From Basidiobolus meristosporus CBS 931.73 (lineage: Eukaryota; Basidiobolomycota; Basidiobolomycetes; Basidiobolales; Basidiobolaceae), in contig MCFE01000844.1 of the NCBI GenBank assembly GCA_002104905.1, positions 1 through 30,783 of the forward strand: DNA of 30,783 nt, written 5' to 3'. Position numbers and translations under genes: made by a program. This document shows, piece by piece, positions 1 to 30,103 of the stretch (positions are counted from its first letter, which is position 1; each line of letters opens with the position of its first letter). A model generated the notes under the pieces. That model was given only the letters and a program-made list of their open reading frames with translations. It had not been told where the DNA came from and made no database searches.

Positions 1-216
1 TACAATGAGATATTTAATCATTTCAGAGTGAGGGTAGAGCACACATTTGGATATCTGAAGAGACTCAGCATATTGGCAGGTAAATACAGAGGAAAGTCAT
101 ATATAGGAGAAAACAGCAGAATAGGTAAAATAGTTAAGATACTTATTAATGCACAGTATGTTCATACAAGAAGACATCCACTGAGAGAAATGTGTCTGGA
201 GCATTCTGAAGAGTAA
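1..216 (+). pseudogene. PIF/Harbinger (DDE_Tnp_4) transposase, C-terminal fragment
   Basis: The frame is open from the first base of the window and stops at 214-216, so the 5' part lies outside. The translated end contains the pattern NEIFNHFRVRVEHTFGYLK. In the DDE_Tnp_4 family this is the last conserved block, N..(S/H)..R..VE..FG.LK, and its Glu is the third catalytic acid. The protein ends about 40 residues later, which is normal for the family. Nothing in the visible part is broken, but the element cannot be judged complete. The block and its position at the C-terminus make the family assignment fairly secure; activity cannot be assessed. Confidence 0.75.
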
Positions 217-310
217 ATAAAGCAAGGAAAGCACTATTCTGAGCAACATAAGTAAGATTGAGTAAAATTACCAGTAACTGTATCATACCACTGGCATCAT
301 GGTAGAAATT

Positions 311-383
311 ATAGTGCCAGATAGTGCTGTAGAGTGCCAGATCAATCCGGCACCATAAACAGGCTTGCACTATGTGGCACTAT
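311..383. repeat. Imperfect inverted repeat, possible transposon end
   Basis: Bases 311-329 and the reverse complement of 365-383 agree at most positions (atagtgcca-atagtgc core). They could fold into a hairpin with a loop of about 35 bases. The site lies about 95 bp downstream of the Harbinger transposase stop, so it may be a subterminal or terminal repeat of that element. No target duplication can be assigned from this window. Confidence 0.35.
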
Positions 384-420
384 CCATCGGAACAAGTCTA
401 TTATGTACTAACCCTGAAAC

Positions 421-591
421 TGTTACAGAATGCTCCTGAATATTGAGAAACCCTCCCTACTTAGTGTTACAGCTGTATTACTTCTACAAAGGTATAAATA
501 CTGAGCTTCTTTATGAATAAATAACAGTTCAACTATTATCACTATTTCTTGATAAGTTCCTTATATCCAAATCACTTCTTAAATTGCAACA
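421..591 (+). repeat. Probable 5' LTR of copia element 1
   Basis: The segment begins tgttaca and ends tgcaaca, an imperfect inverted TG..CA terminus, and is followed directly by a tRNA-type primer-binding site. A TATA-like box (tataaat) lies at 493-499. The right border is well supported by the primer site. The left border is a guess, because the matching 3' LTR is absent and another tgttacag occurs at about 464. Confidence 0.4.
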
Positions 592-603
592 GGTTATAAG
601 CCC
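592..603 (+). other. Copia primer-binding site (half-tRNA initiator Met type)
   Basis: The bases ggttataagccc directly follow the LTR. They differ by one base from ggttatgagccc, the complement of the initiator tRNA-Met anticodon stem-loop. Priming from an internally cleaved tRNA-iMet is known for Drosophila copia. The same site follows the LTR of copia A on the minus strand at 12123-12134. Confidence 0.6.
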
Positions 604-627
604 TGATTGCCTTAATCTATTCCAAAG

Positions 628-3114
628 ATGACTTCTACCAGCAAACAAAGCAATACCAACATCTTCCCTTTTAAGGAGAGGTTTGATGGGAAGAATTACA
701 GACTTTGGAAAATCAAGATGCAGATCCACCTTGAGGAAAGAAAGCTTTGGAACATAGTAACAGGAAAGGAAGTTGAGCCCAAAGGAACAGCAGAAGATGT
801 GGAGAAGTTTCAAGTGAAGGAGAGAAAGGCCTTCAATGCCATATGCATCAATGTGCAAGACTCCTTCATTGGACAAATACATGCCTCAAATACTGCCAAA
901 GCAGCATGGGAATCCTTAGAGAAGATCTTTAGAGCAAAGTCAGTATCAAGCAAGCTTTATTTGAAACAAAAGTTCTTCAGCATAAGGAAGAAACCAGATG
1001 ATGACATGCTACAACTCATTACCAGAATGGAGACACTTGCAGAAGAACTTTACAGTATTAATGCTGGTGTAGATGATGAAGAAAAGATACTCTGTCTGCT
1101 TTGCAGCCTACCAGACAAGTATGAGCCACTCATACTTTCTTTTGAAAGCAGAGAAGACAACTTGACTTTAGACTATGTCAAAGGAAGACTTCTCCATGAA
1201 GAACTCAGACGTAATGATCAAGCAGATAAAACTGAAGATAATGCTTTATTCAGTTCAGAAAGGCACACAGAAAAGAAGGGAAAGCAACAAAACCAAAGAA
1301 AACCTGGCTGCTGTGACTACTGTAAAAAGCCAGGACACTGGGCAAGAGAATGCAAGAAGAAACAAGCAGACAAAAAACAGAAACTAGAGCAAGCAAACCA
1401 TATAACTACTGATGAACAGTTATTTGTAACTGTACAAGAGAGTGCAAGTAACTGAAGTAATGAATGGTATATTGACTCTGGAGCATCACAGCATATTTGT
1501 GGTATAAAGGATTGGTTCAGCAACTTAAAGACTATTCCCGTAAGAAAGGTTTATTGGGGAGATAACTCTGCATTGGAAGCTACTGCCAGTGGGTCTATAC
1601 AACCAAATATGAGTGATAACTCAGGGGCAACAACAGCAAAACTGACTGACATACTCTATGTACCTGGAATAGCTAAGAACCGACTCTCAGTCAGTAAAGC
1701 AACTACTCAGGGACTGAAATTTGTTTTTACTAAGCTGAGCTGCTCAATATTGAGTGAAAATGGACAAAAATTAGCTTCAGGAATCAGAGATCCAAATACA
1801 TACAAGTTACAATGCAAGATCATTGTACCTGAGTATGTCAACATTGCTGAAACTGATGAAACCAACTGGGAAATGTGGCATAGGAGGCCAGGACACATTG
1901 GGGAACAGAAAATGAGCCAATTGGTTGAAAATTAGCTTGTTTTGGGCCTGAAATACTCAATTCCAATCAAATTGAATGTTTGTAAGAGATGTTCATATGG
2001 CAAATAAGCTAGGCAATGTTTCAAGAGCTCAGAAGGCATCAATACCACCAAAATATTGGCTATTGTACACTCAGACATATGTGGCCCCATGAGAACACTG
2101 TCCTTTGGAGCCATGAGATAATTTATGACGTTTATTGATGACAAGACAAGATATACATGGGTGTACTTCCTCAAAACCAAGGATGAAGCTTTAGAGACGT
2201 TTATGCACTTCAAGAACATAGCGGAAACACAAACAGGATGTAAATTGAAGGTACTACAAAGTGACAATGGAGGAGAATACTGCTCAAAGGAGTTTGCAAA
2301 ATACTGCTTGTCTACTGGTATGCTTCAACAGACCACAGTTCCTCATACTACACAGCAAAATGGAGTAGCAGAATGTGCAAATAGAACAATAGTAGAGATG
2401 GGAAGTTCTTTGCTACATGATAAGGGAATGGACTACAGGTTTTGGGCTGAATCTATTGCTACCACTGTATACATCAAGAACAGATGCCCAACAACAGCAC
2501 TACATGATTCTACACCCTTTGAAGCATATACAGGCAAAAAACCAGATCTCCAGCACCTCAAGATCTTTGGCAGTGATATTTTTTATCACATCCCTGACAA
2601 AAAACGCTCAAAGTTGGAACCAAAGAGTAGGAAAGAGATCTTTCTTGGGTATTGTGAAGATACTAAAGGGTATAGAGTGTATAATGGCAAAATTCAGAAG
2701 CTGATTAACAGCAGGGACGTTGTATTTGAGGAGAATTCAGATCAGAAAGCCACAGAAATTATTGGTCAGCTGCCTGATGATGCATTCAACACTAATGAAG
2801 AAGATACGTCCCAAATCCAGCCTGATATGGAAGATACTTCTACCAGTTCCAGATCAGAACAGATTATCCCAGTTAGGAGATCTACCAGAATAAGAAATGC
2901 CCCTGGATCCTGGTGGCAGACATACAATGATCATGAAGAAGATTATCATACCTTATGTGCCAAACCTCGGAATCTGGAACAGGCAATGCAAAGTCCAAAT
3001 GCTACTAAGTGGCAACAAGCCATGCAGGAGGAGTGCCAATCACTGATCAAGGCAAAAACGTGGGAACTGGTAGATTTACCAAATGGGAGAAAGCCAATAG
3101 GATGTAGATGGGTC
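628..3114 (+). pseudogene. Ty1/copia Gag-Pol polyprotein, decayed and 3'-truncated (element 1)
   Basis: Gag starts at 628 (MTSTSKQ), about 36 bp after the primer site. It carries the copia Gag core (RFDGKNYRLWKIKMQ) and a CX2CX4HX4C zinc knuckle near 1312-1355. The protease motif WYIDSGASQH follows at about 1468, then a GAG_pre-integrase WHRR..H block, integrase DDE motifs (FIDDKTRYTWVYF at 2128, QSDNGGEY at 2260) and the integrase C-terminal region. Everything is in one frame but interrupted by stops at 1453 (TGA), 1933 (TAG), 2005 (TAA) and 2119 (TAA). At about 3114 homology ends abruptly just inside the reverse transcriptase (GCRWV), where the MutS7 segment begins in the same frame. RT, RNase H and the 3' LTR are missing. 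This element is diverged from copies A-C. Confidence 0.9.
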
Positions 3115-5262
3115 ACCAATCCCCACAAATTAGAACATTGTTATTGCCAACTTGACAACTTTAGTTCTCTCTTCAAACCTTCTGTAAAAACTTTCAATTG
3201 TCTCTTAACTAATATTGCCGACCTTGAACAACTTCATCGCCAACTTTTATTAGAAGTTCTAACTTTACCCAAACTTTCTTGACTCTATACCTCTTACAAA
3301 GCTATCCTTGATCTTTGCAATCTTCTTATTCCTGCCTTCTCCTCCCCTAATACTACTTCTTCCTCTCATGATCTTCCCAACCTACAAACTTTTTTGCTTG
3401 ATGATCCTCCTAATATACGCTCCTCTTCATCTGATGAGCCTCCCAATATACGTTCCTCTTCATCCAATGAGCCTCCCAATAGACGCTCCTCTTTGTTTGA
3501 TGATCCTCCCAATAGACGTTCCTTTTCATCCAATGAGCCTCCCAATAGACACTCCTCTTCATCTGATGATCTTCCTAACCCACAAACTTTACCTCCCAAA
3601 TCTTCTTTACAACATATTCTCTTGTCTCAACACAAAATTTCCCTTCTTAACAAATTTGTTAACAACATCTCTTGTATCTTTGTTATCGATAATATCCCCA
3701 CCACTGGCACCCTTGACCCCTCCATCTTTTGCAAAGGTATCTTCCCCAATCGCAACTCCCTCTCCAACCCTTGAACTTCTGAACTTGACAAATTAGAAGA
3801 TATTGCCTTTGCTCTCTCTTCTCACGCCCTCTCTTATCTTTCTTCTACCTCACGCAAATCTGTTGACAAAAAACTTATCCCCATTAAAGTCAACTATTCT
3901 CCCCGCTCTGGATACTATCTTTCTGTCACCAATTCTTTTGCCACCAAACTTAAATCTTTCTTAACCAAATCTTTCATCTCTAACAATAACATTACCTTTA
4001 AATCTGACAAATTAAACACCAAAATCTCCTCCAACAGCCTAACCCACATTAGCAATCATATTCTCTCCCTAGATGACCAAATTAACAAACAACTTAAATC
4101 TCTCTTCCTTAGCAGCCTCAAACACTTATCTTCTTACAAAAATATCTTTTGTTGCATCAAACTCTTTGTCGCCAAATTTGACGTTATTAAATCTAACTAC
4201 AAAATTAGTCGCCTCTACAACTTCTGCCACCCTGTTGTCAAACTCTCCAACAAAAGTTATTTTAAAGCCACTGATCTCCGTCACCCCCTCATCAAACGCC
4301 TCCACACTAATCTAGAATGTGTCCCTAATGATATCACCATTGGTACCAACAACCATGACAGTATCATCTTATACTCCATGAACTCCTGTGGCAAAACCAG
4401 CCTCCTCAAAGCCTGCGGCCTCTCCATCATCCTTGCCCAAATGGGCTCCTTTGTCCCCGCTTCTTCTTTCAAATTCTCTTCCTACAAATCTCTCATGACT
4501 TGCATCCTTAGCAAAGATAATATTCTCAAAGGCCAATCCTCCTTTGTCGCCAAAATGTCTGACCTTAGAAATATCCTCAAACATGCCAACCCCTACACTT
4601 TAGTTCTTGCCAACAAAATTACCCACGGCACAGAACACATCACTGGATCTGCTATCTTTGCCTCCAGCATCATGACTCTCGCCAAACAAAATATCAGCTT
4701 TATGTTCACCACCCATTTACACAACATTTACAAATTTATTAAAGATATTCCCAACGTTAAAGTTTTTCATCTTTCTGTTAATTTCAAACATATTAATTCT
4801 AAAAATGTTATCATCTTCAAATGCAAAATTAAAGAAGGCCCCTGTGACTCCATATATGGCCTCAAAGTCTGCAAATTCCTTAACATGGACTCTAACTTCC
4901 TGCAAAAAGCTTACCAAATCCGTGCCAACATTTTGTCCCGTGAAGATAAAGCTTGTCCCACTATTGCCAATGGTCTTCTAAACCAATACTCCAAATATAG
5001 CCATTACAACAAACTTGTTTACAAATGTCAAATCTGCAACTACGTCCCTACCCAAACTACCAGCCTCCCTATCAATGTCCACCATATCCAACATCAACAC
5101 ACTTCTGGCAACAATGGTATGATCAACCATCGCCACAAAAATTCTAAATCTAATCTTGTTGCTCTTTGCAAAAACTGTCACATTAAAACCCACCAAAATA
5201 AACTCCAGATTAACGGCTATGCTAGCACCATCAAAGGTCTTATCTTAAACTTTGCACAATAA
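3115..5262 (+). pseudogene. MutS7-type DNA mismatch-repair protein with C-terminal HNH nuclease domain, 5'-truncated relic
   Basis: The frame encodes about 715 codons of a MutS protein. It begins in the core domain (TNPHKLEHCYCQLDNF, then TNIADLEQLH). Next come a Ser/Pro-rich repeat insertion (3400-3597), a lever/clamp part (SELDKLEDIA, SGYYLSVT), the HPLIKR block and an ATPase domain (NSCGKTS at 4381, AQMGSFVPAS at 4438, ITHGTEH at 4618, TTHLHNI). The C-terminal HNH domain (5026-5193) shows CQIC, VHHI and a final CKNCHIKTH. MutS followed by HNH is the hallmark of MutS7, known from Mimivirus-type giant viruses, octocoral mitochondria and some epsilonproteobacteria, where it is thought to combine mismatch recognition with cleavage. 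The mismatch-binding N-terminus is missing. Two in-frame TGA codons lie at 3280 and 3772. In Walker B the usual Asp-Glu pair is Asn-Lys (4612-4617), and the first Gly of Walker A is Ser. No TGG codon occurs. Very low G on the coding strand sets it apart from every neighbour. The family call is strong; origin (viral versus organellar) is open. Confidence 0.85.
3400..3597 (+). repeat. 33-bp coding tandem repeat (11-residue unit) within the MutS7 relic
   Basis: Five good units and one degenerate unit of 33 bp run head to tail without spacers. Each encodes a variant of (D/N)(D/E)PPN(I/R)RSSSS, and the last drifts to DDLPNPQTLPP. The repeat keeps the MutS reading frame and inserts a Ser/Pro-rich linker between the core and the lever/clamp. 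Such insertions are not part of the MutS fold, so it is probably a lineage-specific expansion that arose while the gene was still coding. Confidence 0.85.
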
Positions 5263-5935
5263 CCATTCTAACCCAACGTTTATCCCTTTTTAAAACTCCT
5301 TTCAAACCTAACTCCCACCCCCTAATAAAACTTTTTTTATAAACCCTAATCTTTCTCTAACAACTTTTCCCAAAGTCTAACCGTCAAACTCCAATTAACA
5401 TCTTTTTCAAGATCCAAACCTTATTGTCATGAAAACTTTTTAAAAAACTTTTTTAAACATCAAGATTAAAACTTTGTCATCCTAAAAAACTTTTACACAA
5501 TTCAAACTTTGTCATCCTAAAAAACTTTCTCAACCAAACTTAATCTTTCTACTCCCAAACTCTCTTGACCCAAACCTTTTTCAAGATCTAAACTTTGTCA
5601 TCCCGCAAAACTTTCTCAACCAAACTTTTTTCAAGGTTTTAGTTTAGTCTTCCCGCCAAACTTTTTTTAAGATCTAAACTTTGTCATCACGCAAAACTCT
5701 TTTTAAAAAAATTTGTCATCACGCAACCTTTTTTTGACTAAACTTTTTCAAGATTTTAGTTTAGTCTTCCTGCCAAACTCTTTTCAAGATCTTAACTTTG
5801 TCATCACGCAAGACTTTTTTGACTAAACTTTGACAAATAAAAAAGTTTTCTCCAGACTTTTAGTCCAGATTTTTTTTAATCTATGTTTTTATTCTAATGT
5901 CTATTTGGTTTATTTTTTTTTAACCAGTTTTAAAT
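5263..5935. repeat. AT-rich tail after MutS7 with interspersed actttgtcatc repeat
   Basis: No gene is visible. The 11-mer actttgtcatc begins at about 5471, 5506, 5592, 5678 and 5795, with a variant (atttgtcatcacgcaa) at about 5711. It is often followed by acgcaaaactttt. A second motif, tttagtttagtcttcc(c/t)gccaaac, occurs twice (about 5637 and 5757). The same T/C-rich, G-poor composition as the MutS7 segment continues here, so it probably arrived with it as 3' flanking DNA. Confidence 0.6.
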
Positions 5936-6334
5936 CATAATGCCAATTAACATTATTAACATTATAAACAACCCGTTTATAGTTATTTTAGAACTGCTTG
6001 ACCCAATTGGAAATACACAACGGTTTGGTTGGGAAGCAGACAACTTTGCTTTATTTTTTGCTGGCATATATATGGAAGTAAGTCAATCCAAAGGAGAAAT
6101 GGTGTTACATATACGTGTGTATGTGGTGCCACAACTTTATTAAACATACTTACTATGGCAGGTCATCATTGAATCTTACATTCATGTAGCTGAAATGTCT
6201 CATATTCAAGACTGTTTTAAATTCACATGAGTATTGGCAAAATAGTGATATAATAATGTTACATTGTTGTATGTCAGACTGTTTGCCCCATGGACAAGGC
6301 CATTTCAATTTAATACCATAAGAGAAGAGAAAAA
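5936..6334. other. No gene recognised; boundary between MutS7 tail and Plavaka-like transposon
   Basis: One short open frame (5940-6143) has no features I recognise. The extreme G-poor composition fades by about 5960, marking the likely right limit of the foreign segment. An imperfect palindrome (acatatacgtgtgtatgt) lies at about 6108-6125. I can assign neither a terminal repeat nor a target duplication. Confidence 0.4.
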
Positions 6335-7880
6335 AGACCATGTGGCTATTGTAGCAAGCCTCTCAGCCATCAAGCACGCAGGCAGCATAAGAAGTATTAC
6401 AAGGATCATGGCCAGTGTTTTGACACACAAGTCATATCTGACCACTCACTAGTCACTACTGTACCAACAATATCTTGCCTGCCACTTGATACTTCTATAA
6501 CAGCCTTTAGGCTCACCCCAGCCTTCTGAATAAGGCATGCACAGTGATAGCTCTGAAGAAGCAGGCTCACTGATGAATTATGAGCCTATCTTTCCTGAAA
6601 ACCATACTCTGCATGAGCCTGGCAAAATCCCATTGTGTAAAGAGACAACACCTGTGGAAAAAAATGCCAAGGATACTTTATGGAGTCAAGTGAGCCCAGT
6701 AATCAATCTACTGGTGAATGATGTAATGTTATGGCTAGAGAAGTGGCACATTTCCACCAATATCAGTAATGGGGGCTATGAGGATATACTACTACTTTTT
6801 GCCAAAATCATCCTGGGATGCAACTTACCATGTGCATGTTATAAATGGATAACAATCATGTGGCTGGCAACATATGACCCAGAGACCATCCTGATACCAG
6901 CATGTGCTTACAGTTGTGTGGTATTCACATCAGAGAATGCCACCATTGCAAAGTGTCCAACTTGTCAGGAATCCACTACCATTGGGGGAAAACATGGTTC
7001 ACATTCTGGATATTTTCCAGTAATACCCTGGATAAAGAAGCTCATGCAGACCAACAAATATTGTGAAGCTATAAAGTTCCACACTTAGTATCAATCAAGC
7101 ACAAACATATCAGATTTATTTGATGGTAAACATTACAAACAGCTAAGAAGCAAGGGCTACTTCTCAAGTATGTATCACCATGCCTTTGCCTTGACACTTG
7201 ATGGAGTCTCATTAAACAAGCACTCTACCAGCATATCCTGCTGGCCACTGATTCTCATCAATGTGAATCTGCCTTCTGCCTTACAGTATCAGAGCAGAAA
7301 TCTGATGGTAGTCTCACTGGTACCTGGGACTATATCACCATCCAGCCTGAATACCTACCTGTATCCATTACTGGATCTATTTTGTATACTTTCCAGCAGG
7401 TTTACTCTAAATGGTCATGATGTAAAAGTGCAAAGCATTATTTGTATTGGAGGAACCCCAGCCATTAGCAAGATAGCCAGCTTTTCTGGGCATAATGGAT
7501 GGTATTGCTGTTGAATGTGTGAATCCAGGGGACTTACTCCATTACTCACACACACTATTTTTACCCAAACACCAACACTACAAACATCATCTTTCCACAG
7601 AGCAAACATACAGAAGTCAGCAGGCAATTGCCGCAAAGTAGGCAAGCTATAAGTCACAGGTTGGAATATGGAATTAATTAGAGACCAAAGATACTTAATA
7701 AAGAGGGAATCTGCAGGAGCAAAAGCTTTCCAATGGGAGCAATGCATTTTCTTTTCAACAATATCCCTACACTGATGACCAAGTTGTACATGGTACTTTT
7801 CAAGCTAAATGAGCCCTTTGAGATTCTGGAGAAATTTGAAAGAATTGGCAAGATATAACAGAATAGTTTTTTTTTATCCA
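6335..7880 (+). pseudogene. Tnp2/Plavaka-like (CACTA-type) transposase, N-terminal and catalytic part, decayed
   Basis: The remains start with a zinc-finger-like block (CGYCSKPLSHQARRQHKKYY, about 6341-6400) in frame 2, which stops at 6527. The match continues in frame 3 from 6537. This covers the Tnp2 region with CPTCQESTT, a 'PVIPWIKKLM' block, 'DLFDGKHYK', 'LTLDGVSLNKHS..CWPLILINVNLP' and 'VPGTISPSSLNTYLYPLLDLF', ending at 'GHNGWYCC' before a stop at 7512. In Tnp2/Plavaka proteins these blocks occur in this order (Asp-containing DG block, WPL.L.N.NLP, PGP..P...D.FL.P, D.PA..K, GH.G...C). Stops at 7086 and 7512 plus frame changes show loss of function. From about 7515 to 7880 only scattered traces remain. 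Plavaka elements are typical of basidiomycete fungi. The broad family is fairly secure; the subfamily name less so. Confidence 0.65.
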
Positions 7881-8303
7881 AACTTTATGTGGAATACCCA
7901 ATGTAGTAGTGGGTAAGCAAATAAAGAGGGGTGAATCCACAGTGGAATAAGTGAACCATCAGTGGCTTGCAAATGGCTGTCTAAACACCGTCATGTTTTT
8001 GCCATATAAGGCAATTGGATATACTAGTTAATTAGATCCACTCAAATAGTTGTAATGTCCACTAATACCACAAGAATGCCATGCCATCCTATGCAAAACA
8101 AGTGCAAACTCCATTATATTTTTTCAACTGTATATGGCTGTAAATTAGCAAAATGCTGTTGTGATCTTGTCACCAGATTGTGTAGATAGTTACCAATTCT
8201 AAGCTGCTGGTATTATAGTGGTCTCCTGATGGGATCTTAACAGCTGATCTGGATTAGATCCATCTGCAGGACCAACATATTTTTCATAGGGAAGGTCTAT
8301 CTG
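7881..8303 (+). mobile_element. 3' part of Plavaka-like element, left copy
   Basis: This stretch aligns to 19217-19745. Shared landmarks include a 'gtagtag.g.gtaagcaaat' stretch near the start, 'gccatataaggcaattg' in the middle and 'ctgctgg.attata' near the end, followed by 'gatc.atctg'. The two copies differ by many substitutions and by indels, the right copy being longer. Left of it the transposase C-terminus is missing, so this copy is internally deleted. It is cut off at about 8303, where copia A begins. Confidence 0.6.
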
Positions 8304-8744
8304 GTGGTGGATCTTATGTCATCTAAATTTTGTCCTCAATTAGCAATAGAGTATCCCACAAGACCCTATTCTGAGTCCTTATAGTGTATCTTAAGCAGAT
8401 AGCAACAGTCTCTTTTAGGTATCTAAAAATCTGCTCAACTGCTGCAATGTATTTAGATCCATAGTTCTGATTATGCTGGCTGACAACTCCTGCTGGATAT
8501 GAGATAACCAGATGAGTTCTGTGCATGATAGATATCAGACTGCAGATCACAGTTTGATAAGGAAAGTTATGGCTTTCAGATGGCACCAAGCTCTCTGGAT
8601 TTGGTTGAGTTTTGACAAAGATAAGGTTTGTCTCCATTGAGGTGGCTGATGGTTTTTGGTCCTCCATTTGGTACTTCCTTTGTATATCTTGAACATACTT
8701 GGGTTGGCCTAGAGTGATATTCTGGGTACTTCTGTCTATGGAGA

Positions 8745-9420
8745 ACTTTAATCCTAAGTAGTAACTGAGTTCTCCCAGATTGGACATCTTGAACTCCTTA
8801 GATAGGCTGGATTTAGTCTCTTTCAATGGTTCTAGGTTATTGGTGGCTATAATAAGCTCATCCACATATAGAGCCAATAGGCCTGGATTTGCCCTATTTG
8901 ATTTAGAGTATATGCAATAGTCAGCAATACTCCTTAGGAAACTCAAAGATTTTAAATAAGTATCTATCTTACAATTCCAGGCTCTTGTTGATTGTTTGAG
9001 TTGATGTAGAGAGTTTTTAAGCTTGCCAACCCAAATTGGGGTCATCTTGATCAGCAAACTCATTGGGCTGGTCCATATACATGTCCTTAAGTAGTGACTG
9101 AGCTCTCCTAGATTGGACATCTTGAACTCCTTAGATAGGCTGGACTTAGTTTCTTCTAATGTTTCTGGGTTATTGGCGGCTATAATAAGATCATCCACAT
9201 AAAGAGCTAATAGAACTGGATTTGCTCTATCTGGCTTATAGTATATACTATAGTCAGCATTACTTCTTTTGAAACTCAAAGATTCCAAATAGGCATCTAT
9301 CCTGCAATTCCAGGCTCTTGGTGATTGTTTGAGACCATACTGTGGCTTTTTAAGCTTGCAGACCAAATGGGGGTTGTCTTGGTCAAAAAACCCATCAGGC
9401 TGGTTCATATACATGTTTGC
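8745..9420 (-). repeat. In-frame 333-bp tandem duplication inside copia A reverse transcriptase
   Basis: The sequence gattggacatcttgaactcc occurs at 8778 and again at 9111, exactly 333 bp (111 codons) apart. Both units encode the RT stretch from a QPD-like block through 'RAWN', 'YVDD/YVDE' and 'ETKSSLSKEFKMSNLGELS'. The unit nearer the N-terminus keeps YVDD; the second has YVDE and a frameshifted first part. The units differ at many sites, so the duplication is old. Confidence 0.85.
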
Positions 9421-10377
9421 ATCAAATTCTCCATTCAAAAATGCAGTTTTTGCATCCATTTGATGAATAAAGAACGTATATTTAGCAGCAATAGCCAGTA
9501 TTAATCTTATGGCATTGAACTTGGCTACTGGTGCAAAGGTCTCAGTATAGTCAAGTCTTTTTGTTTGAGAGTATCCTTTGGCTACAAGTCTTGCTTTGTA
9601 TCTTTCAATTGTACTATCAGCCCTGTATTCTGTCTTGAAGACCTATCTGCATCCAATTGATTTATGGTTGATTGGTAATTTGACAAAGTCCCAAGTTTGA
9701 TTTTCCATCAGGGCCTGATATTCCTCAGTCATTGCAGATCTTCAAAACTTCATCTGCAGGCTATTTAGGGCCTCTTTCACAGTCTGGGGCTCATCAATGT
9801 GGACTGAATAGGCATAGGCTAAGTTTGTACCCTCATTAATATAGTAATTTGGGCTACCTCTTGTCCAATTGGATCTCCAGGCATATGATACTGGAATGAT
9901 CACTTCTGAGATATTGCTGGGCACTGATTCTGGCTGAACCACAGTTGTAGAGTGCTCTGGAGTGAAAAAATTTATATTGTTTTGCTCTGGTTCAAGGCTT
10001 ATAATTGGTGGACTTGAGATCAGATTTTTGTCATCATCTGATGTCATATTTTGTGAAAATTTTGAATTTTTATCAAGCAGCACATCCCTGCACATGATTA
10101 GCTTCTTTTCTGCAGTATTGTGGAGTCAGTATGCTTTAATCTCAATGCAATAACCCAAAAATATGCATTTTACACTTTTTAGCTCAAATTTTGACTGATT
10201 TCTGGGCAGTTTCTTGGCATATACTCTACACCCAAATATTCTTAGATGATCTGCACTTGATCTGTACCCATGCCATGCTTCAAATGGAGTAGAATCACAA
10301 AGTATTCTTTTACAATTCCTATATTTAATGTGTACAGCAGTGGCTTCTGATTCTGCCTAAAATTCATAGGATAATTT

Positions 10378-10725
10378 TGTTGTAAGAGTCTTGGACATAT
10401 TGTAAGTGATTAGGAGAACAAGTATATCATGAGGTTTTCACTTAAAGATTTATTGAATGTAAAAGTAGTGTTTATACTTTTACCTGGTCTTGGCATAACA
10501 AACACATAGAATAGGGTAAGGAAGGTCCCAAGAACATATGTGCAGAGTTTGGGGCTGTTTAGACAACTTTGAGAATTTTCATGTTCTGGGTACCAGGTAT
10601 TTTGGTGAAAATATTCTAAGTAAATCCTGACAAGGAATTTGGTCAGTATTTACTATAATCTGCAGGGAATGATCTAAGTGACTAAGTTAGGTGAATATAT
10701 AGGTGGAAATACAAATCTTACAACA
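10378..10725 (-). mobile_element. Solo copia LTR inserted in element A integrase, with 5-bp target duplication
   Basis: This 348-bp segment starts tgttgtaa and ends ttacaaca, and is the reverse complement of an LTR like that of element C (18184-18531, also 348 bp). It interrupts an integrase sequence that is continuous in element C at about 16000-16050. The flanks aattt (10373-10377) and aattc (10726-10730) are a 5-bp target duplication with one later change. No internal element sequence remains, so it is a solo LTR left by LTR-LTR recombination. Confidence 0.9.
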
Positions 10726-12122
10726 AATTCTTGATCATGGATCATAGATCTTGCCATATCAATTATTAACCTGTTAGCACATTCTGCTACTCTATTTTAC
10801 TGTGGGGAGTATGGTACAGTAGTCTCTTGCTTTATCCCATGAATTTTGCAGAAGTGGATGAAGAGTTTTGAGGTATATTCTCCGCCATTGTCAGAACGTA
10901 GTTTCTTGATTTTTTCATCAGTTTCTCTCTTGACCATAGCTTTAAGCACTCTGAGCTTAGACAGAGCTTCTTCCTTTCTCTCCATGAAGTAGACCCATGT
11001 GTATCTTGTATAATCATCAATAAAAGTGATCAAGTACTTCATCCCGTCTAAGGATAAATTTTGCATAGGTCCACACTGATCTGAGTGAATTAGATCTAAT
11101 TTTTTCTTAGTTTTGACTAACCCAGAGCTCTTGAACAATTGTCTGGCTTGCTTTCCATATATGCAGGCTTCACAGTGCTCCAAATTAGCTGGGGGATCAA
11201 TTTTTACTCTGGAAATTAGCTGATCTTTGATCATTTTGCGCAAGTAATCATGCTCCAGAGTCAATATACCATGTTTGAGAATCATTGTCTGTAGTCATAC
11301 TTAGTGCAGATATGAATAGTCTATCTTCAGTTGTTGCAGCATTTCCATATTCAGGCTTTTTCTGCTGACAATATTTCTTTTTGAAGCATCAGTTGGATGT
11401 GTGTCCTCTCTTTTTGCAATAGTTACAAAACAGGTTGTTGTTGCCATTGTAGGGTCTTGGGTGCCTCCTTTGTTGGCTATCATTGCTTATTAAAGCACTT
11501 TCTTCTTCCTTCTTATTGGTGCTTGATTTTCTTAATTCTTCATCCAGGAGCCTTCCATATACATAATTTAAGGTCAATTCTTCAGTTCTGGACTCTAGGG
11601 CTGATACAAGGCCCTGAAGCTTGTCTATCAAGCTATTCAGGATGGTAACTATCACATCCTCATCAGTAGTTGGTGTGCCCACAGATTCCATTTCATCTAC
11701 CAGCAGGGTAATTCTGTCAAGTAGATTTCTCATTTCTTCTCCTGGCAGCATCTTTGTAGTAAAGAATTCTTGTCTCAGATACATGCTCTTAGCAGCTGAA
11801 CATGACTGGTAGTTTTTTTTCTAATGTCTTACAGGCATTCTTTGCTGTTTTTGCTCTTGATCATCAAATTAGCAATTTGTCCTTATCATTAAGGCAAAGG
11901 CAGTTAAAGGCACTTTGTTCTTTCTTCTGTAACTTTAAGGCTTCCTCTCCCACATTTTTAGGAGGACATTCCTCTCCCATGACAATATCCCAAAGGCCTC
12001 TTTCTTGTAGCAGCATCTTCATCTTCACCTTCCACACTTGGTAGTTAGATCCATCAAACTTTTCAACAGAGGGAAAAATTCTAGTAATAGCAGTGGTAGA
12101 CATTGCAAAGTGTGACAGCTTG

Positions 12123-12134
12123 GGGCTCATAACC
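12123..12134 (-). other. Copia A primer-binding site
   Basis: On the minus strand ggttatgagccc directly follows the LTR. It is the exact complement of the initiator tRNA-Met anticodon region, so priming from a cleaved tRNA half is likely. It lies just upstream of the Gag start. Confidence 0.65.
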
Positions 12135-12483
12135 TGTTGTAAGAGTCTTTAGAGTTATTGGAAGTGATTGGGAGAACAAGTAGATTATGTGGTTTTCACC
12201 TAAGGATTTGATGAATGTAAAAGTGGTATTTATACTTGTACATAGTCTTGGCATATCAAACATGAAGAACAGGTTAAGGAAGATCCCAAGAATATGTGTG
12301 CAAAGTTTGGGGCTGTTTGGACAACTTTGAGAATTTTCATGTTTGGATACCTGGTATGTTGGTGAAAGTATTTCAAGTAAATCCTGACAAAGAATTTGGT
12401 CAGTATTCACTTGGATTTGAAGGTAATGATCTAAGTGACTAAGTTAGGTGAATATTTAGGTGGGATTATGAGTTTTCACCACA
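12135..12483 (-). repeat. 5' LTR of copia A (variant terminus)
   Basis: This 349-bp segment matches the other LTRs through most of its length, including the tgttgtaagagtc end at 12135 and the 'gtgactaagttaggtgaatat' region. At its outer end it reads ttcaccaca instead of ttttacaaca, so in the element's orientation it starts TGTGGTGAAAACTC rather than TGTTGTAAAATTTG. To the right, element B pol continues directly, so A seems to have inserted into B or the two were joined here. Confidence 0.8.
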
Positions 12484-13992
12484 ATTGGGCTATTTCTGGT
12501 CCTTTTGGATCTCCAGGCTTGTGCTACTGGAACAATCACTTCTGGGATATCCCTGAGCACTGATTCAGGCTAAACCACAGCTGTAGAGTCCTCTGGATTG
12601 AAATAATTTTCATTGTTTTGCTCTGATTCAATCCTGACAATTGGTGGACTTGAGATCAAAATTTTGTCATCATCTGATGTCATTTTTTGTGAAAATCTTG
12701 AATTACATCAAACAACACATCCCTGGACTTGATCAGGTTCTTTGCTTTGGCATTGTAGGGTATATATGCCTTACTCTCATTGCAGTAGCCCAAAAATATG
12801 CATTCAATACTTTCTAGCTCAAATATTGACTGATTTCCAGGCGGTTTCTTGGCATATGCTGTACACCCATATATTGTTAGATGTTCTGCACTAAATCTGT
12901 ATCCACGCCATGCTTTAAATGGAGTAGAATCACAAAGTATGCTGTTATAACTCTTATTTCTAAGGTATACAGCTGTGGCAACTGAATCTGCCCAAAAATC
13001 ATAGGATAATTTTTGATGATGGAGCATATATCTTGCCATATCAGTAATTGATCTATGTTAACATTGTGCTACTCCATTTTTCTGTGGGGAGTATGGTAAA
13101 GTGGTCTCTTGCTTTATTGCATGAGTTTTGCTCCCTGGGCCTAGACAGAGCTTCTTTATTTCCTTCCATAATGTAGACCCTATATATCTTTTATAATCAT
13201 CAACAAAAGTGATTAAATACTTCATCCCACCTAAGGATAAATTTTGTATAGGTTTGCACAGATCTGGGTGAGTTAGATTCCATTTTTTCTTGGTTTGATT
13301 AGCCCAGAGCTCTTGAACAGTTGTCTGTCTGATTTCCCATTTATGAAGGCTTCACAGTGCTTCAAATTAGCAGGGGATCAATGATTACTCTGGAAACTTG
13401 CTGATCTTTTATCATTTGCTCAAATTATCAAAGCTTAGAGTTAAATCTTCAGTTCTGGACTCTAGGGCTTATACAAGGCCCTGAAGCTCATCTGTCAGGC
13501 CATTCAGGGTAGTTACTAACAAATCCTCATCAGTCATTGGTACACTCACAGATTCCATCTCATCTCCCAGCGGGGTAATTCTGTTAAGTAGATTTTTCAT
13601 TTCTTCTCCTGGCAGCATCTTGGCAGTAAAGAGTTTTTGTCTAAACTACATTCTCTTGGCTGCTGTGCATGATTGATAGGTGTCTTCTAATACCTTCCAA
13701 GTATTTGTTGCTGTTTTTGCTCTTGAACACTGAATTGTTTCTAACATTAGGGCAAATGCAGTTGAAGGCACTTTGCTCTTTCTTCTAGTACTTTAAGGCT
13801 TCCTCTTCAATGCTTTTAGGAGGGCATTCTTGTTCCATGTCAATATCTCAAATGCCTCTTTGTTGTAGCAGCATTTTCATCTTCACCTTCCACACTTGGT
13901 AGTTAGATCCATCCAACTTATCAGCAGAGGGGAAAATTCCAGTAATAGTGGTGGTAGCCATTGCAGAGAGTGACAGCTTGGGGCACAAAGCC
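12484..13992 (-). pseudogene. Ty1/copia element B, internally deleted remnant
   Basis: On the minus strand, Gag sequence runs from about 13963 (MATTTITGIFPSADKLDGSN) down to about 13447. It jumps, without protease, to integrase sequence (13440-12680; 'FWADSVATAVYLRN' is readable at about 12990). It ends at 12484 in the linker between integrase and RT. Several stops and frame changes occur. Compared with element C, about 0.6 kb covering the zinc knuckle, protease and start of GAG_pre-integrase is missing at about 13440. There is no RT or RNase H. Confidence 0.85.
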
Positions 13993-14208
13993 TGTTGTAA
14001 GAGTCTTTGGAGATATTGGAAGTAATTGGGAGAACAAGCTGATAATGTGGTGTTCACTTAATGATATATTGAATGTAAAAGTAGTATTTATACTTTTACA
14101 TTATCTTTGGTGGAACAAGCATGTAGAATAAACTTGGGAAGGTCCCAAGAGAATGTGTGCAAAGTTTGGGGCTGTTTGGGCAACCTTGAGAACATTTGAG
14201 TTCTGGGT
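13993..14208 (-). repeat. Truncated 5' LTR of copia B
   Basis: The segment begins tgttgtaagagtc at 13993 next to the B Gag leader and matches other LTRs to about 14208 (ttctgggt). The outer third of the LTR is missing. At 14209 it meets Gag sequence of element C on the opposite strand, a head-to-head illegitimate junction. Confidence 0.85.
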
Positions 14209-17200
14209 GCTGAAAAGTTGGATGGATCTAACTACCAAGTGTGGAAAGTGAAAATGAAGATGCTGCTACAAGAAAGAGGCCTTTGGGATATTGTCATGGG
14301 AGAAGAATGCCCTCCTAAAAGCGTGGGAGAGGAAGCCTTAAAGTAACATAAGAAAGAACAAAGTGCCTTTAACTGCCTTTGCCTTAATGATAAATACAAA
14401 TTGCTAATTCAGTGCTCAAGTGCAAAAACAGCAACAAATGCTTGAAAGGTATGACAAATTGCCAATTCAATGCTCAAGAGCGAAAATGGCAAAGAATGCC
14501 TGGAAGGCATTAGAAAAAAACTACCAGTCATGTTCAGCTGCTAAGAGCATGTATCTGAGACAAGAATTCTTTACTACAAAGATGCTGCCTGGAGAAGAAA
14601 TGAAAAATCTAATTAACAGAATTACCCTGCTGGTAGATGAGATGGAATCTGTGAGCATACCAACTACTGATGAGGATGTGATAGTTACCATCCTGAATAG
14701 CCTGACAGACAAGCTTCAGGGCCTTGTATCAGCCCTAGAGTCCAGAACTGAAGAATTGACCTTAAATTATGTATATGGAAGGCTCCTGGATGAAGGATTA
14801 AGAGAATCAAGCACCAATAAGAAGGAAGAAGAAAATGCTTTAATAAGCAATGATAGCCAACAAAGGAGGTACCCAAGACCCTACAAAGGCAACAGCAACC
14901 AGTTTTGCAACTACAGCAAAAGGAAAGGACACACATCGGACCAGAGTTGCAAAAAGAGAGATTATCAGCAAAAGAAGCCTGAATATGGAAATGCTGCAAC
15001 AACTGAAGATAGACTATCCATATCTGCACTAAATATGACCACAAAGAAGGATTCTCAGACGTGGTATATTGACTCTGGAGCTTCTCAACACTTTACACAC
15101 CAAAAAGAACTTTTTACCAAATATAAAGAAATTCCAATTGAGGAGGTTTTCATGGGTGACAATAGAGCACTTGATGCAGTGGGAAAAAGAACTATCCAAG
15201 TAAGCCTTAGAAGCAGTGAAGGAAGCCATACACTGACCTTCAAAGAAGTACTCTATGTACTAGAAATAGCCAAGAACCTACTATATGTAAGCAAGGCCAC
15301 AGCAGAAGGACTCAGTTTCAGTTTGGACAATTCTGGATGCAGGATCACTGATCAAAATGGTGCCCATATTGCTTTGGGCATCAGAGACCAGAATCTATAC
15401 AAGTTGGCTCATAATCCATCATATTTAGAAGCCAATATAAGTAACTTAAATGAATATACACTAATGCTTTGGCATAGGAGATTTGGACGTCTCAATCTTG
15501 ATTATTTGCATAAAATGATCAAAGATCAGCTAATTTCTGGAGTGAAAATTGATCCCCCAGCTAATTTGGAGCACTGTGAGGCCTGCATATATGGGAAACA
15601 AGCCAGACAACCGTTCAAGAGCTCTGAGTTAGTCAAAACTAAGAAAAAATTAGATCTAATTCACTCAGATCTGTGTGGACCTATGCAAAATTTATCCTTA
15701 GACAGGATGAAGTACTTGATCACTTTTATTGATGATTATACAAGATACACATGGGTCTACTTCATGGAGAGAAAGGAAGAAGCTCTGTCTAAGCTCAGGG
15801 AGTTTAAAGCTATGGTAGAGAGAGAAACTGATGAAAAAATCAAGAAACTACATTCTGACAATGGCGGAGAACATACCTCAAAACTCTTCATCCACTACTG
15901 CAAAATTCATGGGATAAAGCAAGATATTACTGCACCATACACCCCACAGCAAAATGGAGTAGCAGAATGTGCTAACAGTCTAATAATTGAAATGGCAAGA
16001 TCTATGATCCATGATCAAAAATTATCCTATGATTTTTGGGTGGAATCAGTTGCCACTGCTGTATACATTAAAAATAGGAGTTATAACAGAGTACTTTGTG
16101 ATTCTACTCCATTTGAGGCATGGTATGGATACAGACCAAGTGCAGAACATCTAAGAATATTTGGGTGAACAGCATATGCCAAGAAACTGCCCAGAAATCA
16201 GTCAAAATTTGAGCCAAAAAGTGTAAAATGCATATTTTTGGGCTACTGCAATGAGAGTAAGGCATACAGACTCTACAATACCAAAGCAAAGAAGCTGATC
16301 AAGTCCAGGGATGTATTGTTTGATGAAAATTCAAAATTTTCACAAAAATGACATCAGATGATGACAAAATTTTGTTCTCTAGTCCACCAATTGTCAGGAT
16401 TGTATCAGAGCAAAACAATGAAAATTATTTCAATCCAGAGGACTTTACAACCGTGGTTCAGCCAGAATCAGTGCCCAGGAATATCCCAGAAGTGATCATT
16501 CCAGTATCAAATGCCTGGAGATCCAATTGGACAGGAAATAGCCCAAATTACTATATCAATGAGGGTACAAACTTAGCCTATGCCTATTCAGTCCATATTG
16601 ATGAGCCCCAGCCTGTAAAAGAGGCCCTAAATGGCCCTCAGACAAAGTTTTGGAGATCGGCAATGACTGAGGAATATCCGGCCCTGATGGAAAAGCAAAC
16701 TTGGGACTTAGTCAAATTACCAATCAACCAAAAATCAATTGGATGCAGATGGGTCTTCAAGACAAAATACAAGGCTGATGGTACAATTGAAAGATACAAA
16801 GCAAGACTTGTAGCCAAAGGATACTCTCAAACAAAAGGACTTGACTATACTGAGACCTTTGCACTGGTAGCCAAGTTTAATTCCATCAGATTAATATTTG
16901 CTATTGCAGCCAAGTATAAGTTTTTAATTCATCAAATGGATGTAAAACTGCATTTTTGAATGGAGAACTTGATGAGAATGTGTATATGGACCAGCCTGAT
17001 GGGTTTGCTGACCAAGATAGCTCCCATTTGGTCTGCAAGCTTAAAAAGTCACTATATGGTCTCAACCAATCACCAAGAGCCTGGAACTGCAAGATAGATT
17101 CTTATTTGGAATCTTTGAGTTTCAAAAGGAGTAATGCTGACTATAGTATACACTATAAGCCAGACAGAGCAAATCCAGTTCTATTAGATCTATATGTGGA

Positions 17201-18172
17201 TGATCTTATTATAGCTGCCAATGACCTAAAAACATTGGAAGAGACTAAATCCTGCCTATCTAAGGAGTTCAAGATGTCCGATCTAGGAGAACTTAGTTAC
17301 TATGTAGGGATTAAGTTCTCCATAGACAGAAGTACCCAGACTATCACCCTAAGTCAGTCCAAGTATATTCAAGATATACTAAAGAAGTACAAAATGGAAG
17401 ACTGTAAACCAGCAGCTACCCCAATGGAGACAAACCTTAACTTGGTCAAAGCTCAACCAAATCAAGGGAGCTTGGTGCCATCTGAAAGCCCTGACTTTCC
17501 TTATCAATCTATGTTTGGCAGTCTGATGTATATCATGCTTGGAACACGTCCAGATATCTCATATTCAGTGGGAGTTGTCAGCCAACATAATCAGAACTAT
17601 GGATCTGATCATATTGCAGCAGTTATTGGATTTTTAGATACCTAAAAGGAACTGCTGATATCTGCTCAAGATACACTTATAAGGATTCAGAACAGGATCT
17701 TGTGGGATACTCTGATGCTGATTGGGGACAAAATTTAGAAGTCAGAAGATCCACCACAAAATACCCCTTTCTTTACTGTCTAGGAGCAATTTCATGGAAT
17801 TCAAGAAAGCAACCAACTGTAGCACTTTCTACCACAGAGGCAGAGTACATGGCAGCCTGTGAAGCTACAAAAGAAGCAATGTGGCTAAGAAAGCTGTTTA
17901 CAGATTTAGGCCAATGTCAAAAAACGCCTATTACTTTATTTCAAGATAATCAAGGATGTATACAATTAGGTAGAAATCCAATTTTTCATGCTAGAACCAA
18001 GCACATAGATATTAGACATCATTTCATACATGAAGCTATAGAGAATAACTTAGTTAGCTTAGTTTACTGTCCTACTGATGAAATGATTGCAGACATATTT
18101 ACCAAACCATTAGCTAGAGACAAGTTTGAATATCTTAGGTCAAAATTAGGACTAGTCAGTATGAACATTTAG
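14209..18172 (+). pseudogene. Ty1/copia Gag-Pol, element C, most complete copy but frameshifted
   Basis: The copy starts inside Gag (KLDGSNYQVWKVKMK) with no 5' LTR. A main frame, 14420-16168, holds Gag, a zinc knuckle with its second Cys changed to Ser (CNYSKRKGH), protease (WYIDSGASQHF, about 15061), GAG_pre-integrase and integrase (HCEACIYGKQ, FIDDYTRYTWVYFM, SDNGGEH). After a TGA at 16166, a frame change near 16345 leads to the RT frame (GCRWVFKTKYKADG). Loss of one A near 16935 shifts to 16956-17645 (YVDD at about 17195), and an extra base near 17625 shifts to 17702-18172 with RNase H (GYSDADWG, ALSTTEAEYMAA, TKPLARDKFE). The order Gag-PR-INT-RT-RH defines Ty1/copia. It cannot make an intact polyprotein. 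Confidence 0.92.
14396..14511 (+). repeat. 58-bp tandem duplication in copia C gag
   Basis: Two adjacent units start at 14396 and 14454 (acaaattgc.aattca.tgctcaag). They differ at about ten positions. The unit length is not a multiple of three, so the duplication shifts the Gag frame. It is absent from element A. Confidence 0.75.
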
Positions 18173-18183
18173 CTGAGTGGGAG
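18173..18183 (+). other. Polypurine tract of copia C
   Basis: The purine-rich ctgagtgggag lies between the RNase H stop codon (18170-18172) and the first base of the 3' LTR. That is the place for plus-strand priming in LTR retrotransposons. Confidence 0.7.
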
Positions 18184-18531
18184 TGTTGTAAAATTTGTAT
18201 TTCCACCTAAATATTCACCTAACTTAGTCACTTAGATCATTACCTTCAGATCCTAGAGAATACTGACCAAATTTGTTGTTGGGATTTACTTAGAATATTT
18301 TCACCAAAATACCAGGTACCCAGAACATGAAAATTAGATAAGTTGTCCAAACAGCCCCAAACCTTGCACATATGTTCTTTGGACCTTTCTTAGTCTATTT
18401 TACATGTTTGTCATGCCAAGATCATGTAAAAGTATAAATACTACTTTTATATTCAATAAATCATCAAGTGAAAACCACATAATCTACTTGTTCTCCCAAT
18501 CACTTCCAATAACTCTACGACTCTTACAACA
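18184..18531 (+). repeat. 3' LTR of copia C
   Basis: The 348-bp LTR starts TGTTGTAA and ends TTACAACA, perfect 8-bp inverted termini. It contains a TATA-like box (gtataaata, about 18430). It is closely similar to the solo LTR in element A and the LTRs of A and B. The flank after it is ataac; no 5' LTR exists to confirm a target duplication. Confidence 0.93.
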
Positions 18532-18540
18532 ATAACATGG

Positions 18541-19745
18541 AGGACATTGGACCTTGATACACCTTTTGGGAGTCTCTTACAGAGCAGATCTGTGGAGAGA
18601 TAAAAAGAGTAGTCAAGTTGCAAGTACTACCATATTACAATCTCATTAAGAATATTACCTTTTGGTCCATCCTGGATATGATGAGTTGGCATATGGAAGA
18701 CAGGCTAGAAGTGTTCAAAGATATGCAGTACAGATCTGCCCATGGAGACACCTATGCCTTTGGCATTAAGAAGCTAAGCAGCCCCAATGTGTGGGTACTC
18801 AGTTAAGTAATGCAAAGTTGGGTTGGACACAGTAAGCAACAAATCATTAATAGGTCAACTGTACCAAAGTACACTAGACATCTCCTGGGCACAAGCCAAT
18901 TTTACACCTTTCAATACAGAATCTCCACAAATAAGTGCCAGAGCACACCTACAAGGTGGACTAGAATCCAGCAGGGAGAAGGACTACACTGGCCAAGTAC
19001 CAAGAACTATTTTGTAGATATTCAAGTGGTATACATGGCAAAAGTGGTTGCAACTAAGCATATGTTTGAAAGATATATATGCTACCAGCAATACAAGGTA
19101 TATGGCACCTTTGCAAGTATCACACTGAAATGCCTTGAGTTCAGGTGATAGAAGTGTGTCAATTGTGGCAGGTATGCACATATATAAAGGTTAGTAAGCA
19201 GGAGGCCATAGTTTTGGTTGATTTAAACTATATGGGGAATACCTATGGTAGTAGTGTGTAAGCAAATTTATTGGTGTGACTCTACAGTGGAACATATGAA
19301 TTGTGTAAGGGGAGGTAGAAAATGGAATATCATTGGTAAGCTGGTTTGGTAGAATTATACAGGACTAGCTGTAGGTCACTGTACTGCTGTGAAAATGCCA
19401 ACTGAGGTCTGTATTGAGGCTGTCAAAGCATCATCATGTTTCTGCCATATAAGGCAATTGCATATATTGGCCAGTAAGGTCTGCTCAGATAAGTGTAGAC
19501 CACATTTAGACCATCTGGATGCCATGCAAGTCCCACTTAAAGACAGTTAAAACGCCATCAAGTTTATTACTTAATTTGGCAGTAAAAACTGCAAAACACT
19601 GTCACAATCCCACCATTAGATTGTGGAGAAGGTCAAGAATTCCAAGCTGCTGGCATTATAACAGCCTTGTTGTGGGATTCAGATGGCTTATCTGGATCAG
19701 ATCCACCTGTGGGACTGAATTAGTATTCATAGAAGGATAGGTTGA
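18541..19745 (+). pseudogene. Plavaka/Tnp2-like transposase C-terminal region and 3' end, right copy
   Basis: Readable fragments include 'CGEIKRVVKLQVLPYYNLIK' (about 18591), resembling the 'AIKSRR.PYA.L' block near the end of Plavaka-like transposases. A C-terminal piece, 'NYFVDIQVVYMAKV..FERYICYQQYKVY', ends at a stop at 19146-19148. Several stops and frame changes occur. From 19217 the sequence aligns with 7881-8303. The pair may be two elements of one family or the two halves of one disrupted element carrying a duplication. The C-terminal match is suggestive rather than certain. Confidence 0.45.
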
Positions 19746-22719: not shown

Positions 22720-23136
22720 CTTGTTTGAAAAGAAGAAACTACTGTATAAAGGAGAATTTACTGTAGAAGAGAATAAGCTACTTTGTGGAAACTGGAAGTT
22801 AAAGTTGGTCAAATGACACCCAAACCCGAACTCGTATTTCCGATTCGCAAAACATCGGGAAAGTCAAATAACCACCGGCAGAAATCATGGAAATCCGGGG
22901 AGTCAAACATCGATCATTGATGACGAGTATGGTGGAGCTTAGACAAGATTGATTGGCCAGTTGGCAAAGCTCTGACCGCGCATATCCCAAGATTTCAAAA
23001 CGCCATAGTTTGGAAACGCGAGAAGGACGACCCTCATTTATTTTTGGTTCGGTGATCACAAAATACAAAATACTCCCTGGATCGATAATTATAACTACAT
23101 TCTCTATGCTATGTAAGGTGCGGGGCAGGCTGGGAA
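22720..23136. other. Intergenic region between VRP1-like and HPM1-like genes
   Basis: These 417 bp hold the VRP1 promoter and the HPM1 3' region. A 348-bp antisense-frame ORF here has no family features. I see no clear TATA box. Confidence 0.5.
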
Positions 23137-30029: not shown

Positions 30030-30103
30030 GAGAGCGTCTTGGCGCCTTGTACAACCTAACAAATCATCTAAACTTGGTCTCACCGCATTATCTTCCATTC
30101 TTG

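Follow-up and report, generated by a model that had tools for sequence, protein, structure and literature searches.

MutS7 proteins combine mismatch binding, an ATPase and nicking in a single chain and are described in PMC3166940 as lacking MutS domains II and IV; elsewhere, they are on record for nucleocytoviruses, octocoral mitochondria and epsilonproteobacteria (PMC12292046). The presence of nucleocytovirus DNA in early-diverging fungi is already documented (PMC5294986, PMC10640383; virions in PMC9894930), and according to a 2023 paper no double-stranded DNA virus infecting fungi was known (PMC10640383), so that endogenous copies are the main evidence for large viruses of this kind infecting fungi. 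The window analysed here, i.e. the whole stretch of 30,783 bases, is contig C1140 of the genome of Basidiobolus meristosporus CBS 931.73 (89.0 Mb, 1,311 contigs) and contains, at 3112-6020, the relic of a MutS7-type MutS gene with a C-terminal HNH domain, without its N-terminal half and flanked by transposon pieces. In our estimate, with a probability of roughly 0.86, this segment derives from a nucleocytovirus-like large DNA virus that integrated in the chromosomes of the fungus, and has since decayed. The Basidiobolus version shares domains I, III and V, a C-terminal HNH and a place on the MutS7 side of the tree with the MutS7 of giant viruses, octocoral mitochondria (mtMutS) and epsilonproteobacteria as presented in PMC3166940, PMC12292046 and PMC8438181, but differs from them in being present as several pseudogene copies in the nuclear genome of a fungus and in carrying an array of 11-residue repeats. 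The features of the window are as follows.

628-3111, + strand: Ty1/copia retrotransposon gag-pol frames, ended by the presumed viral junction (ORFs, Retrotran_gag_2)
3112-6020, + strand: probable virus-derived segment, colinear with C1116:9792-12821 (blastn; GC skew about -0.5; CpG between the levels of both flanks)
3115-5262, + strand: apparent MutS7-HNH pseudogene, N-terminal half absent, in-frame TGA at 3280-3282 and 3772-3774 (translation, Pfam)
3358-3588, + strand: region of 33-base (11-residue) tandem repeats within the MutS7 gene (repeat search)
3778-4017, + strand: MutS domain IV-like stretch, marginal (PF05190, 22.3 bits, cut-off 22)
4366-4929, + strand: MutS domain V, the ATPase (PF00488, 123.3 bits)
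5026-5196, + strand: C-terminal HNH nuclease domain with C..C, HH, N and C..CH (PF01844 below cut-off, plus residues)
5263-6020, + strand: probable virus-derived spacer containing direct repeats, degenerate and some 30-34 bases long (repeat search, blastn)

The segment begins within a Ty1/copia frame (gag part 1.3e-40, Pfam), and to its right lies another CpG-poor stretch, the observed/expected CpG ratio being 0.11 over 1-3111, 0.504 in the segment, 0.056 over 6021-19500 and 0.717 from 19501 onwards. By blastn, the window is identical to C1116 at 93.8% over 3112-3320, 88% over 3321-3578 and 93.6% over 3358-6020 (2,719 aligned bases). The initial annotation had bounded the element at 3115-5262, which holds for the gene frame, closed by a TAA at 5260-5262, but not for the similarity to C1116, which runs from 3112 to 6020 and thus 758 bases beyond the gene. 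The spacer that makes up this extension has full-length matches in DNA searches on C1116 (95%) and C914 (93%), as well as short ones on C980, C102, C264, C1085 and C367, which lie outside the count of 25 contigs given below. Units of the 33-base repeat, counted with one regular expression, number 5 in the window, 6 in C914 and 8 in both C113 and C1116.

Several other characteristics of these regions were recorded. Strand asymmetry is very strong both in the window at 3112-6020 and on C1116 at 7000-13000 (GC skew of -0.42 to -0.59 per kb on C1116); on C1116 the skew is weak over the family-B DNA polymerase (PolB) and helicase genes. The stretch 6021-19500 of the window is transposon-rich and has lost nearly all of its CpG. 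Further right, two inverted copies of an UNC-93/MFS transporter, at 24776-26077 (- strand) and 27123-28424 (+ strand), encode an identical protein and share 1,293 of 1,302 bases; a third similar copy at 30047-30781 (+ strand) is cut by the window end.

Pfam searches were run on the pieces of the window between stops. MutS domain V was found over 3778-5259 at 1.5e-35 and domain IV at 1.6e-4 (22.3 bits against a cut-off of 22). The HNH domain scored 0.0013 (19.2 bits) on the piece 4378-5259 and 0.014 (15.9 bits) on a longer piece, both below the cut-off of 21.4 bits, despite which all its characteristic residues are present in the window copy and nearly invariant in alignment A1. With the Ty1/copia flank, these results bear out the initial description of a MutS core and ATPase fused to a C-terminal HNH nuclease among transposons. 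Domain I is absent from the window copy and domain III is unmatched in its pieces. The public model P0001 matches domains I (1.5e-10), III (3.1e-14) and V (7.7e-39), with domain II at 18.2 bits (cut-off 25), domain IV barely over its cut-off (23.3 bits against 22) and no listed Pfam HNH at E up to 0.01. An acidic pair of the ATPase that is invariant in alignment A1, and which we take to be the Walker B motif, is lost in the window copy. Because half of the protein and this pair are gone, the window copy is, judging from its sequence, a dead pseudogene that cannot work.

A search of the same genome with a 494-residue piece gave 14 matches. The whole piece was matched at five places, i.e. the window, C914, C113, C1116 and C423, and since the four places outside the window match residues 1-494 at 82-93% identity, the relic is beyond chance. 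MutS7 fragments were found in addition on C431, C468, C671 (at the contig end) and C136, which makes nine MutS7 contigs altogether. Matches on C769 (28%) and C842 (31%) were not counted as copies, since they are probably host genes of the MSH type; C769 groups with MutS1 in the tree. The missing N-terminal half, which had been proposed as an object of search, was located on C1116 and C914, both of which match the first 414 residues of P0001 in the stretches examined; the match to P0001 starts at about residue 355 on C113 and the window and at residue 424 on C423, and P0002 reaches slightly further back on C113. In these stretches, none of the five near-full copies is intact: the N-terminus is truncated in the window, C113 and C423, stops interrupt the window copy, C914 and C423, and the frame is broken on C1116; an open frame of 1,053 codons is retained in C914. 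The best protein match of the C914 copy is the public record K493DRAFT_362925 of B. meristosporus CBS 931.73, so the earlier statement that no fungal gene of this type was known does not stand.

The first 22,900 bases or so of C1116 hold a helicase, followed by a PolB with its exonuclease, a HIRAN protein and the MutS7 gene, and Pfam matches in this block comprise Helicase_C (5.2e-5, above its cut-off), DNA_pol_B and exonuclease, HIRAN, MutS I, III and V, and HNH. The PolB is a complete family-B polymerase. The helicase is a 100% match to K493DRAFT_308691 and has an NPHI_C-like tail (0.0014, 19.1 bits, under the cut-off of 22.3); at E up to 0.01 its sole match among solved structures is the NTPase-I chain 6rfl_Y (3.6e-6), presumably poxviral. 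The opposite strand holds six paralogous frames for which Pfam gives no firm match; calling this family membrane-type is our own reading of the sequences. These six frames lie at C1116:13497-22777 (L025, L026), and their relatives occur on ten contigs, C1116 included. From about 23 kb, C1116 consists of CpG-poor repeats common to other loci and then, at its far end, a PTR2 transporter gene (9.7e-73). From the presence of the viral block and the PTR2 gene on one contig, and of decayed copies amid CpG-poor flanks, we regard this DNA as integrated in the host chromosomes.

Searches of the same genome placed relatives of the helicase on 5 contigs, of one membrane-type protein on 10 and of the HIRAN protein on 5, which with the nine MutS7 contigs gives 25 contigs with related pieces. 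A helicase fragment of 1.3 kb with CpG-poor flanks lies on C910, and more PolB-like fragments, several with stops, were seen on C573, C377, C757, C127, C1248, C427 and others. The initial annotation had proposed that the gene came from a large DNA virus and could mark endogenised viral DNA elsewhere in the genome; this reading is supported by the helicase and PolB beside MutS7 on C1116, the 25 contigs, the missing N-terminal half on C1116 and C914, and the 100/100 clade described below with its PolB-sharing contigs. Of the giant-virus hallmark genes, for which it had suggested a search, the genome has the NPH-I-like helicase, along with a family-B PolB, but gave no match to D5_N and A32 in searches that left introns out and detected the controls in 3/14 and 2/14 cases, respectively; Capsid_NCLDV and VLTF3 had no genome match either, but their controls were silent too, which makes this test, in which introns were likewise left out, uninformative. 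The absence of D5 and A32 from scattered fragments is compatible with a viral origin, and because neither was found in the genome we term the source nucleocytovirus-like, not a proven member of the group.

Relatives of the MutS protein were taken as the best 120 of 633 matches (8,000 candidates scored), of which the first 99 (P0001-P0099) were classed as MutS7-like, and the remaining 21 served as MutS1 controls. Of these 120, 67 carry a strict HNH pattern, and several of the misses end within the motif or have a looser form of it. P0001 is the only eukaryote-named entry among P0001-P0099. For PolB, the best 120 of 1,219 matches were used, and the named proteins among those listed are from Mortierella sp., Linnemannia elongata, Podila clonocystis and Bifiguratus adelaidae. 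Equal contig size was taken as identity of contig. On this basis, the 99 MutS7-like and the 120 listed PolB entries have 11 exactly equal contig sizes in common, against a mean of 0.275 and a maximum of 3 in 2,000 trials with jittered sizes, and two sizes, 22,473 and 92,727, are found in all three lists of MutS7-like, PolB and helicase entries (24 of the latter); the 21 MutS1 controls have no size in common. In L. elongata, the helicase and PolB carry the consecutive tags BGZ89_005715 and 005716, and the contig size given for both is equal. The IMG/VR contig L037 encodes a PolB and a helicase that are 42% and 37% identical to the C1116 proteins, its helicase having no NPHI_C match at E up to 0.01. 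The search of IMG/VR gave no MutS7 relative and two PolB loci, one of them only 24% identical; in a phage collection, the matches among the 10 listed of 29 records were partial, at 25.6-29.7% identity. A 592-residue ORF of L037 was considered as a capping enzyme and dropped for want of a Pfam match at E up to 0.01; it had no match in the Basidiobolus genome in a search run without a control.

Three side observations were made among these relatives. MutS7-like genes occur in metagenome-assembled genomes (MAGs) titled Uhrbacteria, Magasanikbacteria and Patescibacteria (L050, L054, L080, L082), and L050 and L054 nest inside the Campylobacterota MutS7 clade of the tree. P0077, P0082 and P0089 are MutS7-like proteins of 1,260-1,395 residues with Pfam PF05203, which we take to be an intein or homing-endonuclease domain. 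The helicase relative P0252 belongs to the EukProt entry SM000112S24010, presumably the alga Spirogloea muscicola, and is perhaps part of another viral insert.

The MutS tree comprised 43 sequences: 25 of P0001-P0099, 13 bacterial MutS7-like sequences (11 from Campylobacterota and two from candidate-phylum MAGs, picked from 80 returned loci), four MutS1 and the host protein of C769. It was built without named viral or octocoral MutS7, as was the PolB tree without a named virus. The MutS7 side is split from MutS1 and the host MSH at 100/100, with Basidiobolus on the MutS7 side. Basidiobolus and eight apparently metagenomic sequences form a 100/100 clade, and the 13 bacterial sequences a separate one, also at 100/100; the contigs of five of the eight clade mates (P0002, P0003, P0006, P0007, P0057) match that of a PolB entry in size. 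Long branches were flagged (host MSH, P0093), and the branching order within MutS7 is provisional; a quick tree of 56 sequences agrees with the 43-sequence tree. In the PolB tree (46 sequences, 44 of them from the 120 listed relatives; midpoint rooting), Basidiobolus forms a 100/100 group with P0121 and P0122. It lies on the side of the named fungal proteins and L037, the sequences nearest to it being ones that lack a species name, followed by a clade with the Mortierella, Linnemannia, Podila and Bifiguratus proteins. All 11 PolBs of the MutS7-bearing contigs lie across a 100/100 branch from the Basidiobolus PolB. The two trees misfit one simple shared history, and an exchange of genes between viruses is possible.

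The copies differ widely in their CpG content. C113, as the less changed copy, served as reference: the window copy differs from it at 63 of 1,485 aligned sites, 39 of which are C-to-T or G-to-A changes at CpG, and the CpG count falls from 58 in C113 to 19. Transitions affect 39 of 116 CpG bases against 11 of 498 other G/C bases in the window copy (p = 1e-21), and 32 of 116 against 10 of 498 in C914 (p = 5e-17). The protein is altered by 30 of the 39 CpG changes of the window copy. Observed/expected CpG ratios form a graded series (C1116 1.16, C113 1.15, C914 0.64, C423 0.60, window 0.50, C910 0.37), to which the short segments add values of little weight (C136 0.66 in 186 bases with 4 CpG, C468 0.18 in 321, C431 0 in 563, C671 0 in 177); for comparison, eight flanks range from 0.01 to 0.38 and the host MSH region has 0.87. 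DNA_methylase domains were found at 5 places in the genome. We infer that the inserts underwent CpG methylation and then deamination; the graded decay resembles what mutation of methylated DNA would produce, and it may be the trace of invasions that recurred in the past.

The changes outside CpG bear on the number of invasions. Relative to C113, C423 has 175 such changes, distributed over the codon positions as 52/17/106 (p = 1e-15 against equal shares); the counts are 3/9/12 in the window, 3/1/18 in C136 and 3/2/2 in C671, and the bias is weaker or absent in C431 (16/11/13) and C468 (18/17/27). Raw dN/dS is below 0.5 in every pair of the five copies, and the values outside CpG are 0.18-0.41 between the young copies too, albeit from few changes; a low raw dN/dS alone therefore fails to single out C423. 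Its codon pattern is, on sequence grounds, read as the mark of selection before decay, and because of this 52/17/106 distribution at least two viral lineages probably integrated. A host copy once under selection is a less probable reading of C423.

Four other origins were weighed against a viral insertion. An undescribed large mobile element, capsid-less and transposon-like but equipped with virus-type replication genes, would fit the failure to find a capsid or packaging gene (the capsid test being uninformative), the spread of pieces over many contigs, and the repeats and paralogous membrane-type family of the block. We nevertheless hold it to be unlikely: Pfam detected no transposase or integrase in ten ORF pieces of the C1116 block, a blastn comparison of the first 3 kb of the block with bases 20,001-23,500 revealed no common repeat (on the left, the block is truncated where the contig stops), the helicase carries its NPH-I-like tail, MutS7, PolB and helicase matches sit on contigs of equal size, and the related PolB and helicase of L037 are together on one contig. 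An assembly chimera or a viral contamination of the culture, suggested by the abrupt junctions in the window, is very improbable, as C1116 passes from viral genes into CpG-poor repeats and the PTR2 gene, and as a free virus would leave unexplained a CpG ratio of at most 0.66 in 8 of 10 segments on different contigs, next to two near 1.15.

The existence of a public gene model and the open frame kept by C914 could also speak for a domesticated fungal MutS gene with a host function. This is more improbable still, given that, in the stretches examined, every near-full copy has a truncation, frame break or stop, and that most CpG changes of the window copy are protein-altering. The horizontal transfer of an epsilonproteobacterial MutS7 gene to the fungus has in its favour that MutS7-like genes occur in these bacteria and that all 13 examined have an HNH-like tail; it is contradicted by the MutS tree, in which Basidiobolus and the bacterial sequences belong to different clades, and by the virus-type neighbours of MutS7, and was rejected as having almost no likelihood.

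For the preferred reading, an insertion of viral DNA, the following course of events can be proposed. Nucleocytovirus-like viruses of at least two lineages would have integrated at different times, the fungus would have methylated the CpG sites of the inserts, which deamination then mutated, and retrotransposons would have broken up the inserts. In the living virus, going by the MutS7 literature, the MutS core would find mismatches and the fused HNH would nick the DNA, a self-contained viral DNA repair. More broadly, and tentatively, at somewhat less than even odds, Basidiobolus was invaded repeatedly by MutS7-carrying giant viruses of early terrestrial fungi, whose integrated DNA it disarmed by CpG methylation followed by fast CpG-directed mutation, the CpG content ranking the inserts by age. 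One strain thus offers inserts of graded decay together with a repair gene otherwise known from reports on nucleocytoviruses, octocoral mitochondria and epsilonproteobacteria, and two questions become testable now: whether giant viruses with MutS7 infect early fungi, and whether it is through cytosine methylation that fungi tolerate such insertions.

Literature searches combining Basidiobolus with giant virus or NCLDV returned nothing, and with MutS nothing apparently relevant, judged from titles. Endogenous nucleocytoviruses were reportedly described from several fungal phyla by Gong et al. in 2020, possibly including Basidiobolus. For Basidiobolus, the MutS7 relic appears to be new, as do its scattering over the genome and the graded decay of its CpG. 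The term MutS is absent from the main text of PMC10640383, Basidiobolus and MutS from that of PMC5294986, and neither occurs in PMC9894930. The survey of methylated gene clusters in several fungi presented in PMC12344493 found no viral origin for them.

Among the systems described, the nucleocytovirus inserts of Gonapodya, Allomyces and Rhizophagus likewise consist of viral core genes in early-diverging fungi, as reported in PMC5294986. The giant endogenous viral element of Rhizophagus irregularis, as portrayed in PMC10640383, also has nucleocytovirus-like genes in an early-diverging fungus and lacks MCP, A32, D5, RNR and SFII, the absence of D5 and A32 being a point in common; it is, however, a single block of 1.5 Mb judged to be recent, whereas the Basidiobolus DNA is scattered and graded in CpG. 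The endogenised giant viruses of Amoebidium, which are under 5mC according to PMC11244446, resemble it in that endogenisation recurred in a host which has retained cytosine methylation, but Amoebidium is not a fungus and the Basidiobolus case is known from the mutational footprint alone. If true, the repeated invasion and disarming proposed for Basidiobolus would be a fungal counterpart of such methylation-tolerated giant-virus endogenisation.
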